Assembly (NCBI GenBank): GCA_902520835.1 | Contig: CABYPD010000009.1 | Location: 1-51,746, forward strand | Source: an uncultured Bacteroidota bacterium | Lineage (GTDB): Bacteria > Bacteroidota > Bacteroidia > Flavobacteriales > Flavobacteriaceae | Reading direction: 5' to 3' | Length of the DNA: 51,746 bases | Part shown: positions 10,364-23,477 of the stretch, piece by piece | Numbering within the stretch: the first letter of the stretch is position 1 | Layout of the letters: every line of letters starts with the position of its first letter | Notes under the pieces: generated by a model | Told to the model about the DNA's origin: nothing | The model's database searches: none | Seen by the model: only the letters and a program-made list of their open reading frames with translations | Program-made: the position numbers and the translations under genes

Positions 10364-11215
10364 TTAATTTGATTTTTGAAAGACAAAATAGTGAGAGCTT
10401 GCATTATTCGTGAACAAATAAGATATTGTTGAAAGCAAACCAATCAAAAACCCTTTAAAAAAACCTAGCGGATTTTTTTTATATTTCTCAGACAATATTG
10501 AGACATAAAAAGCATCCAGAAACATAGGAGCTGATTTTAACAATTCAAAACCAGCATTCTTTGCAGCTAAAACTATTGCTCTTTTATTAAAATGATATCT
10601 ATGTCTAGGAGTATCGTAACCTGCCCAGTATTTTTGATAATATTTGGCATCTAAAGAATCATGGTTAGGAACTGCTAAGATTAGAAACCCATCGTCACTT
10701 AGTAAGGCATAAAACTTTTTAAGTGCTTTATTGAAGTCTAACAAGTGCTCTAAAGAATGCCAACAAGATATCAAATGAAAGCCCGAGCTGATTGTATCAA
10801 AGTTTTTGAATACTTTAATTTTTTTTTTTAAACACTCATTGTAGGCACTCGAGTTGTTTTCGATGCCGCTTGAATCATATCCTTTAAATTGCATTACAGA
10901 AACTAAATCACCAACACCACAACCAAAATCTAAAAACCGTTTAGAAGAGCCCATATATTTAGCAATCAAATTGAACTTTCTTTTAAGCATAAATTTTGAA
11001 GCAGCAGAATACACTAAAGAAAAAAAAGAAGATCCTTTATTGTGTGACAAATAATCACTTGAATTATAGTAATTAAAAATATCTTTATCAGAAACTTGGG
11101 GGGTGGTTTTTAGTAACCCTTTTTTTATCTCCTTTACAACAAATTCTTCGTTTGAGACTAAATAATCTCTAGTTGAAATTTCTTTTGTTTCACGTGGAAC
11201 CTTAATATCGCTCAT
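10364..11215 (-). CDS. Class I SAM-dependent methyltransferase
   Basis: The 283-residue protein has the SAM-binding motif I FLDFGCGVGDLV (about residues 93-104), a motif-II acidic region (GIENNSSAY) and a segment SCWHSLEHLLDF typical of the Methyltransf_23 group, followed by ILAVPNHDS. A hydrophobic stretch near the C-terminus (about 250-270) may associate with the membrane. The substrate is unknown. It follows mnmG with only 2 bases between the stop of one and the start of the other region, so it is likely in the ybeY-mnmG operon. Codons 5-10 of the gene encode a parS-like site (11186-11201). Confidence 0.82.
   Translation of the reverse strand: MSDIKVPRETKEISTRDYLVSNEEFVVKEIKKGLLKTTPQVSDKDIFNYYNSSDYLSHNKGSSFFSLVYSAASKFMLKRKFNLIAKYMGSSKRFLDFGCGVGDLVSVMQFKGYDSSGIENNSSAYNECLKKKIKVFKNFDTISSGFHLISCWHSLEHLLDFNKALKKFYALLSDDGFLILAVPNHDSLDAKYYQKYWAGYDTPRHRYHFNKRAIVLAAKNAGFELLKSAPMFLDAFYVSILSEKYKKNPLGFFKGFLIGLLSTISYLFTNNASSHYFVFQKSN
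11186..11201. promoter_or_regulatory. parS-like ParB-binding site (15 of 16 match)
   Basis: The plus strand reads TGTTTCACGTGGAACC. Its reverse complement differs from the widely conserved chromosomal parS sequence TGTTCCACGTGAAACA only at the first base. It sits inside the 5' end of the methyltransferase gene, where it encodes VPRET. A second, exact site lies 1.9 kb away at 13096. Confidence 0.75.
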
Positions 11216-11217
11216 AA

Positions 11218-13089
11218 TTATCTACCCATAAAAACAAGCATTGCACTAATATCAGCTGGTGAAACACCGCTTATCCTGGAGGCTTGAGACAAAGTTCTGG
11301 GTTTGATATCTTCAAGCTTAGACTTGGCTTCAGTAGATAAAGATTTGAGCTTGCTATAATCAAAAGCCAAAGGTATTTTAACGGATTCTAAATTATTAAG
11401 TTTTTCTGCATGAGATTTTTCTTTATCAATATAACCAGAATACTTAATTTGTATTTCAGACTGCTCAATAATTTCCTCATCAATGGAATTCTCAATTATA
11501 AAGTCATTTAACGCTTTAATTTTTAAAACATCCTTTGAAACAATATTTGGTCTACAATACAATTTCTTTAATTTCATTGATTGTGAAATTGGCTTAGAGT
11601 TTTTGTTTTCTAATATTGGGTTCATTTCAGTTGGAAGAACGCTAAGCTTTGTAATAAAATCTATGAGTTTTTTTGTTTTAGAAAGTTTAGATTTGACAAA
11701 GTTATAACGGTCATTTGAGGCCAATCCAATGGAGTGAGATAATTCAGTTAGCCGTATATCTGCGTTGTCTTGTCTTAAAAGCATCCTAAACTCTGCTCTA
11801 GACGTAAACATTCTATACGGTTCTTCTGTTCCTTTAGTAATTAAATCGTCTATTAAAACACCAATATAAGCCTCGTTTCTTTTTAAAACAAACTCTGGTT
11901 TATTATTAATTTTTAGATGGGCATTTATTCCCGCCATTAAACCTTGTGCTGCGGCTTCTTCATAGCCAGTTGTTCCATTTATTTGTCCTGCAAAAAATAA
12001 ATTTTCAATAGGTTTTGTTTCAAGTGAGTGTTTTAATTGAGTGGGGGGAAAATAATCATATTCAATAGCATATCCAGGCCTAAAAAACTTAACGTCTTCA
12101 AATCCTGGTACAGATTTTAGAGCATTAAATTGTATGTCTTCAGGAAGCGAAGTTGAAAAACCATTAACATAAACTTCAACGGTACTCCAACCTTCAGGTT
12201 CAACAAAGACTTGGTGTCTTTCTTTGTCGGCAAACCTATTAATCTTATCTTCAACAGACGGGCAATACCTAGGTCCGACAGACTTAATTCGTCCATTAAA
12301 CATTGGAGACCTGTCAAAACCTTCTCTTAACAAATCATGAGTAACTGAATTAGTATAAGTTACAAAACAGCTTCTTTGTTTAGTTAATTTTGGTGAGGAA
12401 GGTAAATAGGAGAAGCGGCCAGGATTAATATCTCCAGGTTGCTCTTCCATTTTATTATAATTTAAAGTTCTGCCATCGACCCTTGGCGGAGTTCCAGTTT
12501 TCATTCTTCCTGACTTAAAGCCTAAGCTAACTAATTCTTCAGTAATACCTAAAGAGGGTTTTTCTCCTGCCCTGCCACCACCAAACTGTTTTTCTCCTAC
12601 GTGAATTAGACCATTCAAAAAAGTTCCATTAGTTAATATAACTGTCTTAGTATATATTTTAATTCCGAGTTGGGTAGTAACACCAACAACTGTTGTTCCA
12701 TCGACTATAAGGCCACTTACAGAATCTTGATAGAAATCTAGATTTTGAGTAGCCTCGAGCATTTCACGCCATTTGTGAGAAAACATCATTCGATCTGATT
12801 GAGCTCTAGGACTCCACATAGCTGGTCCTTTAGATTTATTAAGCATTTTAAACTGAATAGCGCTGTAATCAGTAACTAGCCCACTGTAGCCGCCTAAAGC
12901 ATCAATTTCTTTAATAATCTGCCCTTTGGCTATACCTCCCATGGCAGGATTACAAGACATTTGCGCAATATTCTGCAGGTTCATTGTTATAAGCAAAGTA
13001 GAGCTTCCCATATTTGCTGCTGCTGCTGCTGCTTCACTTCCGGCATGTCCTGCGCCAACTACTATAACATCGTATTCTTTTTGGAACAT
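11218..13089 (-). CDS. mnmG: tRNA uridine-5-carboxymethylaminomethyl modification enzyme MnmG (GidA)
   Basis: A 623-residue FAD protein that, with MnmE, modifies the wobble uridine of some tRNAs. It has the N-terminal dinucleotide-binding motif GAGHAG (12-17), the CNPAMGGIAKG segment with conserved cysteine, the GidA signature region around GTPPRVDGRT, and GYEEAAAQG near the FAD site. The C-terminal helical region ends in ASRISGVSPADISAML, which contacts MnmE and tRNA in known structures. It starts 2 bases after ybeY, so both lie in one operon. mnmG is often near the replication origin, which fits the flanking parS-like sites. Confidence 0.97.
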   Translation of the reverse strand: MFQKEYDVIVVGAGHAGSEAAAAAANMGSSTLLITMNLQNIAQMSCNPAMGGIAKGQIIKEIDALGGYSGLVTDYSAIQFKMLNKSKGPAMWSPRAQSDRMMFSHKWREMLEATQNLDFYQDSVSGLIVDGTTVVGVTTQLGIKIYTKTVILTNGTFLNGLIHVGEKQFGGGRAGEKPSLGITEELVSLGFKSGRMKTGTPPRVDGRTLNYNKMEEQPGDINPGRFSYLPSSPKLTKQRSCFVTYTNSVTHDLLREGFDRSPMFNGRIKSVGPRYCPSVEDKINRFADKERHQVFVEPEGWSTVEVYVNGFSTSLPEDIQFNALKSVPGFEDVKFFRPGYAIEYDYFPPTQLKHSLETKPIENLFFAGQINGTTGYEEAAAQGLMAGINAHLKINNKPEFVLKRNEAYIGVLIDDLITKGTEEPYRMFTSRAEFRMLLRQDNADIRLTELSHSIGLASNDRYNFVKSKLSKTKKLIDFITKLSVLPTEMNPILENKNSKPISQSMKLKKLYCRPNIVSKDVLKIKALNDFIIENSIDEEIIEQSEIQIKYSGYIDKEKSHAEKLNNLESVKIPLAFDYSKLKSLSTEAKSKLEDIKPRTLSQASRISGVSPADISAMLVFMGR

Positions 13090-13091
13090 AT

Positions 13092-13514
13092 TTATTGTTT
13101 CACGTGGAACAAACGTAACATTTTCTCTTCTTTATCCCTAATAGCTTTTATTTCATCATCATTGGAATCGTTGTAGCCCATAAAGTGAAGGAGGCCATGA
13201 ACCATAACTCTTCTCAATTCATCATCAAATTTAGTAGAAAACTTTTTAGAGTTTTCCCTTACCCTGTCAATAGATACCGCAATATTACCAGCGAGATTAT
13301 AACCATCAGAATCATCGAATGACAATACATCTGTACAATAATTGTGATTTAAAAACTTGACATTCAGGTTTTTAACATCTGCATCATTAAAAAAAGCATA
13401 AACAATATTGTTTAGCGAATAGCCTTCAGAAAGAGCAACTTTCGCTAACCAATTACAATATAATTGTTCGTTATCTAGCTTATAATCAGTGTTGTAAACA
13501 AATTCGACAGTCAT
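13092..13514 (-). CDS. ybeY: Endoribonuclease YbeY (rRNA maturation factor)
   Basis: A 140-residue YbeY-family metalloprotein, involved in 16S rRNA 3' maturation and ribosome quality control. The metal-binding motif is present as HGLLHFMGYND: two histidines are visible, but the third His of the usual HxxxHxxGxDH pattern is not in its usual place, as I recall for Bacteroidota members. I place the start at ATG 13514 (MTVEFVYN); an in-frame TTG at 13526 lies inside the -7 promoter element. The last codons (LFHVKQ) encode an exact parS-like site. Confidence 0.9.
   Translation of the reverse strand: MTVEFVYNTDYKLDNEQLYCNWLAKVALSEGYSLNNIVYAFFNDADVKNLNVKFLNHNYCTDVLSFDDSDGYNLAGNIAVSIDRVRENSKKFSTKFDDELRRVMVHGLLHFMGYNDSNDDEIKAIRDKEEKMLRLFHVKQ
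13096..13111. promoter_or_regulatory. parS-like ParB-binding site (exact 16-bp match)
   Basis: TGTTTCACGTGGAACA is the exact reverse complement of TGTTCCACGTGAAACA, the chromosomal parS consensus known from Bacillus and many phyla. It overlaps the last codons of ybeY and lies just upstream of mnmG. ParB bound at such sites recruits SMC and ParA for origin segregation. Confidence 0.85.
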
Positions 13515-13523
13515 AAAACTTGG

Positions 13524-13531
13524 CAAATATA
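13524..13531 (-). promoter_or_regulatory. -7 promoter element for ybeY-mnmG-methyltransferase
   Basis: On the minus strand this reads TATATTTG, a perfect TAnnTTTG match, ending 9 bases before ATG 13514. It rules out the upstream TTG as a start. Confidence 0.55.
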
Positions 13532-13566
13532 ATATTACAAGATTAAAGATAAAAAGAGAAAAATTA

Positions 13567-13574
13567 TATATTTG
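13567..13574 (+). promoter_or_regulatory. -7 promoter element for the alkB-like gene
   Basis: TATATTTG, a perfect TAnnTTTG match, ends only 4 bases before the ATG at 13579, which implies a leaderless or nearly leaderless transcript. Confidence 0.5.
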
Positions 13575-13578
13575 AAAA

Positions 13579-14622
13579 ATGAAGGATTTAAAGTATTTAT
13601 TTGCTTACACAATTCCTGTTTCTGCTTACCTTTCATTTACATCATATGGTATTGGAACATATACTGCAGTAATTTATGCTTTTATAATAATTCCATTTTT
13701 AGACTCGCTATTTGGACAAAGCAAAGAAAATCTTCAAGAAAACGAGGTTAAAGCAAAGAAAATTAATAAGGTTTTTGATATTATGTTATACGTTAACCTA
13801 CCTATTGTCTTTGGATTACTTTGGGTTGTTTTTAATAAGGTTCAAAGCATAGATTATTCAACTAGCGAAATGATAGGGCTTTCTCTGTCAACAGGAATTC
13901 TTTTATCCACAAACGGGATTAATGTGGCTCATGAACTTTGTCATAGAAATAAGTATTATGAAAAATTTATTGGGAAGGCATTATACATGCCATGTTTGTA
14001 TATGCATTTTTATATCGAGCACAACTTTGGACACCACATTAATGTAGCGACACCTGATGACGGTGCAACTGCTAAATATCGACAATCTGTATACTCGTTT
14101 TGGATAACATCAGTTACAAAACAATATGTTGATGCTTGGAAAAAACAAATTGAATTGTTGAAAATTAAGAAAACTAAATTCTTTTCAATTAAGAATGACA
14201 TGCTGTGGTATCATATCATACAGCCATTATATTTATTTTTTGTTTTATTATTGTTCTCTACAAAAGTTTTATTATTTGCTATAGCTGTTGGAATTATAGC
14301 TTTTTTGTTCTTAGAATGCATAAACTACATTGAACATTATGGTTTAAGAAGATTTAAAAATGAATCTGGGAGATATGAAAGAGTTCAAACATATCATTCG
14401 TGGAATTCGAACCATAATATTGGTAGAATAGTTTTATATGAACTTACTAGACACAGCGACCATCACTTTAAATCATCAAAAAAATATCAGCTTCTGAACT
14501 ACTATGAAGAAAGCCCGCAACTTCCATACGGATACCCTGCATCAATTCTATTAAGTCTTGTTCCGCCTTTATGGTTTTATATGATGGACCCTTTAGTTCC
14601 AGAAAAAATGAAAAAGGTTTAA
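13579..14622 (+). CDS. alkB: Alkane 1-monooxygenase (AlkB family)
   Basis: A 347-residue integral membrane di-iron hydroxylase. All four histidine-box regions of AlkB are present: HELCH (118-122), EHNFGHHINVATPDD (147-161), NYIEHYG (249-255) and RHSDHH (291-296). Several hydrophobic helices lie between them. AlkB enzymes oxidise terminal carbons of medium-chain alkanes to alcohols, with electrons from rubredoxin. No rubredoxin or rubredoxin reductase gene is visible in this window, so partners must be elsewhere. The substrate could be another alkyl chain rather than free alkane. Confidence 0.88.
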   Translation: MKDLKYLFAYTIPVSAYLSFTSYGIGTYTAVIYAFIIIPFLDSLFGQSKENLQENEVKAKKINKVFDIMLYVNLPIVFGLLWVVFNKVQSIDYSTSEMIGLSLSTGILLSTNGINVAHELCHRNKYYEKFIGKALYMPCLYMHFYIEHNFGHHINVATPDDGATAKYRQSVYSFWITSVTKQYVDAWKKQIELLKIKKTKFFSIKNDMLWYHIIQPLYLFFVLLLFSTKVLLFAIAVGIIAFLFLECINYIEHYGLRRFKNESGRYERVQTYHSWNSNHNIGRIVLYELTRHSDHHFKSSKKYQLLNYYEESPQLPYGYPASILLSLVPPLWFYMMDPLVPEKMKKV

Positions 14623-23103: not shown

Positions 23104-23477
23104 TAAATCTTTGCTAAATTACTTTTTAAAAGGATAAAACCGTTATCAACATTTTATTATTTATAAATAACATTATAAAAAGAATATTTAAAAGTTATTA
23201 TGATTATTATATACTGTTAATATGTATGATATCTTTTGTGTTTTTTAAAAACTATTTGAGATATTAAAATATTATAAACAATAAATATTAATATTAATTA
23301 TTTGAATTTCAATTTTATAGGCAGTTATCATTTATAGTTAATAACTTATAAATAGTATAAAATTTTAAAAAAAGGATGTCAATAAATACATTAATTTTGT
23401 TAAAAATAAATGATGGTTTTTATAAAAGGTAAATATTTAAAATATAATTCAAAATTATTAACAACAACTAACAAAAT
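23104..23477. other. 374-bp AT-rich intergenic region between rnr and rpiB
   Basis: This is the longest gene-free stretch in the window and is almost entirely A and T. It must hold the divergent promoters of rnr and rpiB. It contains TTATCAACA at 23143-23151, one base from a DnaA box, plus looser variants (TTATCATTT near 23325, TTATTAACA at 23455-23463). I see no open reading frame, tRNA or clear terminator in it. An origin role is only a possibility. Confidence 0.5.
23392..23399 (+). promoter_or_regulatory. Possible -7 promoter element for rpiB
   Basis: TAATTTTG matches TAnnTTTG and would give an rpiB leader of roughly 70 bases. The surrounding sequence is so AT-rich that a chance match is quite possible. 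Confidence 0.3.

Follow-up and report, generated by a model that had tools for sequence, protein, structure and literature searches.

Why should two 16-bp palindromes of the parS type stand on either side of mnmG in a flavobacterium, each written into the end of a neighbouring coding sequence? The question is raised by contig CABYPD010000009.1 of an uncultured Flavobacteriaceae bacterium (assembly GCA_902520835.1), of which positions 1 to 51,746, hereafter the window, were analysed as part of a draft genome of 1,406,777 bases in 39 contigs that is 84% complete. An earlier note, made from the letters of the window alone, had pointed out the two sites and suggested that they lie near the replication origin. 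Their sequence and rarity, a parAB operon in the same genome, the residues of its ParB and conservation in relatives leave hardly any doubt that the two sites are parS, where ParB of a chromosomal ParABS system would load. Published work is cited below by PMC number.

A rare pair of palindromes flanks mnmG

Chromosomal parS is a 16-bp sequence of the TGTTNCACGTGNAACA type, near TGTTTCACGTGAAACA. Site 1 (TGTTTCACGTGGAACA, 13096–13111) is an exact fit to the former and one base off the latter. Site 2 (TGTTTCACGTGGAACC, 11186–11201) shares the core of site 1 and deviates from the degenerate form TGTTNCACGTGNAACA at one terminal base and from TGTTTCACGTGAAACA at two bases. Neither site is assigned a strand. 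Their starts lie 1910 bp apart, one on either side of mnmG: site 1 is 22 bp ahead of the mnmG start and consists of the final ybeY codons (FHVKQ), and site 2 is formed by the first codons of a methyltransferase gene (VPRET), 17 bp after the end of mnmG. The earlier note had given these positions, an exact consensus match for the first site, a single mismatch for the second and their location in the two coding ends. All of this holds, provided that matches are counted against the degenerate form, and the translations (...LRLFHVKQ* and MSDIKVPRET...) agree. In PMC10197239, the parS consensus used is TGTTTCACGTGAAACA.

It had also been claimed that such a pair 1.9 kb apart is very unlikely by chance, and the genome-wide scan bears this out. 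The pattern TGTTNCACGTGNAAC occurs at two places in the whole draft genome, which are sites 1 and 2, and its reversed control at none; an order-1 Markov model derived from the window predicts 0.012 occurrences per genome and 2e-7 pairs within 2 kb. As expected of parS, the sites are therefore not scattered, but rare and confined to a single chromosomal region, with two places 1.9 kb apart in the 1.41 Mb of this 84% complete draft. When up to three mismatches to TGTTTCACGTGAAACA are allowed, 14 places are found in the genome versus four in the control, and the 12 besides sites 1 and 2 are without the CACGTG core.

ParA and ParB of the same genome

The genome possesses a parA-parB operon on contig C2, in which a ParA-like protein with the motif KGGVGKT is encoded directly upstream of ParB; among the listed NCBIfam models, none scores this ParA-like protein over its cut-off. 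ParB itself exceeds the cut-off of TIGR00180 (4e-44) and has relatives among the solved ParB/Spo0J structures. GERRxRA is the cytidine triphosphatase motif of ParB, and the protein carries it as GERRLRA, together with R173 and G201 (Caulobacter numbering, mapped by motif spacing). The same two residues are found in 35/35 ParBs with a readable motif, among 38 sequences extracted from 39 loci (L349 gave no sequence). L335, L343 and L344, the three that are left, have SK in place of GK and so escape the motif; R is visible in these too.

These residues bear on the identity of the sites, since Noc binding sites (NBS) are also 16 bp long and are bound by a ParB paralogue. According to PMC7383237, R173 and G201 are absolutely conserved in ParB orthologues, whereas Noc has Q173 and R201 at these positions. 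We thus reject a reading of the two sites as NBS.

Conservation of the arrangement and a possible role as operators

The host is a flavobacterium, as its best mnmG relatives are named Tenacibaculum, Salinimicrobium, Winogradskyella and similar, genera which we take to belong to the Flavobacteriaceae in the order Flavobacteriales; genomes labelled as of the same family or the same order were likewise taken as Flavobacteriaceae or Flavobacteriales. Within the family, the motif is present in 97 of 100 genomes (the present one included) and the reversed control in 6 of 100. We fetched 80 related mnmG loci by protein similarity and counted as a site any match to TGTTYCACGTGRAACA with at most two mismatches, up to 200 bp upstream or 300 bp downstream of mnmG. 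Both sides carry such a site in 73/80 loci; six have the upstream site only and one (L111) has neither. Furthermore, 13 of the 22 congeners searched match the window over about 1.9 kb or more. Both sites are present in every one of them, with no more than one mismatch, even though methyltransferase identity is just 38–79%. The other nine are uninformative, being drafts of 55–77% completeness (one with a 25-bp match only). The earlier note had named two outcomes that would refute its proposal, an even spread of many such sites over the genome and their loss at synonymous positions in close relatives; neither was observed.

Beyond the family, we compared 70 of 148 genomes of the phylum, namely those with the 30 best-scoring mnmG loci and 40 picked to cover families. 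In 66/70, mnmG has a site no more than 600 bp away, on one side or both. Both sides are occupied in the three Flavobacteriales of this set (3/3). Seven further families from the class of the Flavobacteriales divide into five with upstream sites only, one with both and one with none, while nine more distant families have sites only downstream; the others are mixed.

Could ParB-bound sites at this place be kept mainly to regulate the ybeY-mnmG-methyltransferase operon, with ParB at the gene borders repressing or insulating mnmG transcription? The sites do hug gene borders (at -22 and +17 in the window, and near borders in most loci), and in Pseudomonas aeruginosa promoters adjacent to parS3 and parS4 are reported to be repressed (PMC5521831). 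Yet what is preserved is the attachment to mnmG, while the side changes from family to family between both, upstream only and downstream only. Site number changes too, up to 12 within 1.2 kb upstream of mnmG in the Flavobacterium locus L056. Because the sites stay at mnmG despite these changes of side and number, a centromere fits better than an operator, and we regard a mainly regulatory role as improbable.

L056 (sites counted at up to two mismatches) is one of four Flavobacterium loci, together with L052, L062 and L065, that show parS-like arrays upstream of mnmG. Diverged sites, for example with CACATG or CACAAG cores beside or replacing CACGTG, were seen in L035, L036, L038, L087 and L101 (three Tenacibaculum, a Kordia and one other), where the preference of ParB may have changed.

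The imprint on YbeY

With the window added to the 80 loci, the position of the sites relative to the reading frames could be compared in 81 loci. The upstream site lies inside ybeY in 39/81, in one frame in 36 of them and in another in three, and only after the stop codon in 40; two are unassigned. The downstream site falls within the methyltransferase open reading frame in 13/81. A protein-motif search found FH[VM] in the last 14 residues of YbeY in 39/80 tails, that of the window included. In these tails, for which mnmG from the same loci served as comparison, His is encoded by CAC in 39/39 cases versus 34%, Val by GTG in 37/37 versus 17% (the other two tails have Met), Glu by GAA in 34/34 versus 73% and Lys by AAA in 5/5 versus 70%. 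Phe is TTC in 31/39 versus 23%, and the third position of this codon coincides with the changeable pyrimidine of parS.

It might be argued that both sites are relics of an ancestor, which persist because the amino acids of the YbeY tail and of the methyltransferase N-terminus are constrained and not because of ParB; an FHVE/KQ tail indeed recurs in many YbeY proteins. However, the codons are fixed at degenerate positions, and the remaining 41/80 YbeY proteins lack the FH[VM] tail altogether. Since the site is inside ybeY in only 39/81 loci, occurs there in two frames and in 40 loci lies past the stop codon, its persistence is not accounted for by constraint on the protein, and we consider the relic explanation very unlikely. 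The mnmG-flanking arrangement is conserved at the DNA level, and the YbeY tail offers a clear case of a DNA-binding site shaping a protein terminus. A chance match in AT-rich DNA, finally, is refuted by the scan and by the family and locus counts and has a negligible probability.

A putative mechanism

It is very likely that the sites act as chromosomal parS, with ParB loading at both and spreading over mnmG, and with ParA moving the complex once the nearby origin has replicated. In molecular terms, the ParB encoded on contig C2 would recognise both 16-mers and load there as a clamp dependent on cytidine triphosphate (CTP); the clamp would slide over mnmG and its neighbours, and ParA would act on the ParB complex to separate the origin regions after they have been copied. 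Binding, CTP-dependent sliding and segregation at these sites are here transferred from the known ParABS mechanism. That the sites hug mnmG is consistent with gene borders tolerating a fixed peptide and with inheritance from an ancestral dnaA-mnmG-parS origin.

Proximity to the replication origin

The claim that the window lies near the origin was approached through relatives, and guanine-cytosine (GC) skew was sampled in four of them, each represented by 20 stretches of 20 kb. Polaribacter sp. BM10 (G100, also locus L057) and G014 show a sign change at mnmG. On a fine scale, the cumulative skew minimum of G100 lies at 2,462,837, about 13 kb from mnmG, and that of G014 at 889,868, 42 kb from mnmG. 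For G014 we relied on the point between 0.87 and 1.07 Mb where the sign turns from minus to plus, as the running sum from position 1 is lowest at the record end because the record starts mid-replichore. Furthermore, Ori-Finder and skew led the authors of two studies on Flavobacteriaceae to locate oriC at mnmG (PMC11278836, PMC12843772); the first of these names the positions differently in a figure legend and in its text. Ori-Finder relies on lineage-specific indicator genes (PMC10225481), and its naming of mnmG may therefore not be independent.

The distance from mnmG to dnaA is 21–49% of the chromosome in 13/13 near-complete Flavobacteriales, and that from mnmG to parB is 21–36% in the same 13, with chromosome length rounded in six of them. 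Of 18 further genomes from the phylum, 11 have dnaA no more than 3.1% from mnmG, four have it 5–15% away and three 27–35% away (G246 has two dnaA hits above the cut-off and was counted by the closer one). parB is adjacent to mnmG in none of the 31 genomes compared, where it is 7.7–49% away. In a study of 12 gut bacteria including two Bacteroidetes, the origin likewise does not systematically coincide with dnaA (PMC10197239).

Several observations weigh against the interpretation of the sites as origin-proximal parS. Skew agreement is clear in only 2/4 sampled relatives: the skew of G078 is weak and that of G023 noisy, and their sampled minima are 0.26 and 0.36 Mb away from mnmG, respectively. 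The genome under study is itself a draft of 39 contigs, so that origin proximity rests on relatives; skew inside the window is noisy. Site 2 lacks a terminal base of the palindrome, and the codon counts come from loci that share ancestry and are not independent events. Moreover, the NCBIfam Noc model TIGR04285 scores our ParB at 209.7, below its cut-off of 315, versus 149.0 for parB_part. Altogether, the part of the earlier claim concerning the origin agrees with the skew minima of G100 and G014 and with the two papers and is not confirmed by G078 and G023; proximity of the sites to the origin is supported, not proven.

A candidate oriC between rnr and rpiB

Ten kb from site 1, the window contains a divergent gene pair, rnr (RNase R-like, PF00773; 21025–23103, minus strand) and rpiB (PF02502; 23478–23909, plus strand). 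The AT-rich intergenic region between them (23104–23477, no strand assigned) holds four TTATNNACA boxes, at 23143, 23272, 23377 (reverse strand) and 23455, and we regard it as a candidate oriC. The 800-bp stretches of the window that are richest in TTATNNACA cover this region, with four boxes versus three in the next best. In 560 kb sampled from G100, the rnr-rpiB intergenic region is again the richest, with six boxes, and all stretches with at least four lie here; in 580 kb sampled from G014 it is the richest with five, and one other place has four. Upstream of rpiB, TTATNNACA occurs 66 times in 21 loci versus 10.4 expected, with none in 4/21 loci, while upstream of dnaA it occurs eight times in 15 loci versus 4.9 expected. 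We infer that the TTATNNACA boxes bind DnaA.

The position of this region agrees across genomes. Of 20 genomes compared, two have rpiB and the parS pair on different contigs and two have no parS rows listed; in the other 16/16, with both listed on one contig (the present genome included), rpiB is about 9–65 kb from the pair. The skew minimum of G100 falls between rnr and rpiB, and that of G014 about 21 kb from rpiB.

As an origin marker, only the broader TTATNNACA singles out the candidate. TTATTAACA is found upstream of rpiB in 15/21 loci, and was rejected as a marker by itself: its best stretch in G014 is at 2,236,700 and its highest listed one in G100 at about 2,416,000. No cluster of the classical DnaA box TTATCCACA is seen near parS: the window has 16 places with at most one mismatch and at most two within 500 bp downstream of any of them. 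The sole exact TTATCCACA of the window is at 13903–13911, 0.8 kb from site 1, and the sole exact one in the 560 kb sampled from G100 is at 2,457,157, between mnmG and rpiB; the G014 sample has three, none of them between mnmG and rpiB. Upstream of dnaA, loci L319–L333 share an element around TTTGTTCACATATTTGT, whose 9-mers occur in 9–11 of the 15 loci versus fewer than 0.4 expected, and which is perhaps a regulatory site.

Partitioning in an order without detected SMC_prok_B

In the SMC-ParABS system, ParB loads SMC-ScpAB at parS. SMC_prok_B (TIGR02168) is over its cut-off in 0/13 Flavobacteriales (12 of the family, our own draft included, and one of another family), in a search that did not extend to MksB or MukB. 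Among five other genomes of the phylum the model exceeds its cut-off in four; G130, the remaining one, has two large pieces that score below it. As no SMC_prok_B protein was found over the cut-off in the 13 genomes searched, canonical SMC loading by ParB is unlikely in Flavobacteriales. A condensin homologue was likewise not found in two gut Bacteroidetes, according to PMC10197239. With the pair at mnmG as a defined centromere, one could ask how ParABS functions in an order without detected SMC_prok_B, a question that PMC10197239 leaves open.

Relation to known systems

Compared with chromosomal parS in general, the sites are alike in sequence, palindromy, clustering, a ParB with parS-type residues and partly supported origin proximity, and differ in that the pair brackets mnmG within coding ends and that parB is far away on the chromosome in Flavobacteriales. 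The parS clusters of the gut Bacteroidetes Bacteroides caecimuris and Muribaculum intestinale (PMC10197239) share the consensus and were found at two mismatches; the available text mentions neither bracketing of mnmG nor coding overlap, both of which are present here. For Mariniflexile litorale and Algorimicrobium, Ori-Finder 2022 and GC skew likewise put oriC at mnmG (PMC11278836, PMC12843772), and in Mariniflexile dnaA did not align with the skew. The available parts of these papers do not bring up parS, and our data favour the rnr-rpiB intergenic region, at its distance from the pair, as oriC. In a literature search that mostly left subscription journals outside its coverage, none of the titles and abstract openings listed concerned parS flanking mnmG in Bacteroidota, and we make no claim of priority.

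As a kind of element, chromosomal parS is already known; what is noteworthy is that it stays with mnmG over the phylum sample, that it has left its imprint on YbeY, that dnaA and parB are distant and that SMC is missing. A broader picture, which we offer tentatively and to which we give somewhat less than even chances as a whole, is that Flavobacteriales possess an SMC-less chromosomal ParABS whose centromere is the parS pair bracketing mnmG. According to this picture, parS and mnmG would have stayed at the ancestral origin, with dnaA and parAB now elsewhere; the true oriC would be the rnr-rpiB intergenic region with its TTATNNACA boxes and not dnaA; and the centromere would be written into the C-terminus of YbeY. 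If the sites are indeed parS near the origin, an mnmG-bracketing pair would show the region in which the origin of a flavobacterial chromosome lies, in draft assemblies too, and caution would be due over assemblies set to begin at dnaA.

Genes around the sites

All three genes at the sites are on the minus strand. ybeY (13092–13526; PF02130, TIGR00043) encodes an rRNA maturation RNase whose C-terminal tail is specified by site 1, and mnmG, also named gidA (11218–13089; PF01134), is flanked by both sites and reaches 832.9 bits with TIGR00136. The gene of the S-adenosylmethionine-dependent methyltransferase (10364–11215; PF13489) has its N-terminus partly encoded by site 2. Finally, a 25-bp stretch at 13565–13589 of the window has 96% identical copies on contig C1 of the same genome and in two congeners.

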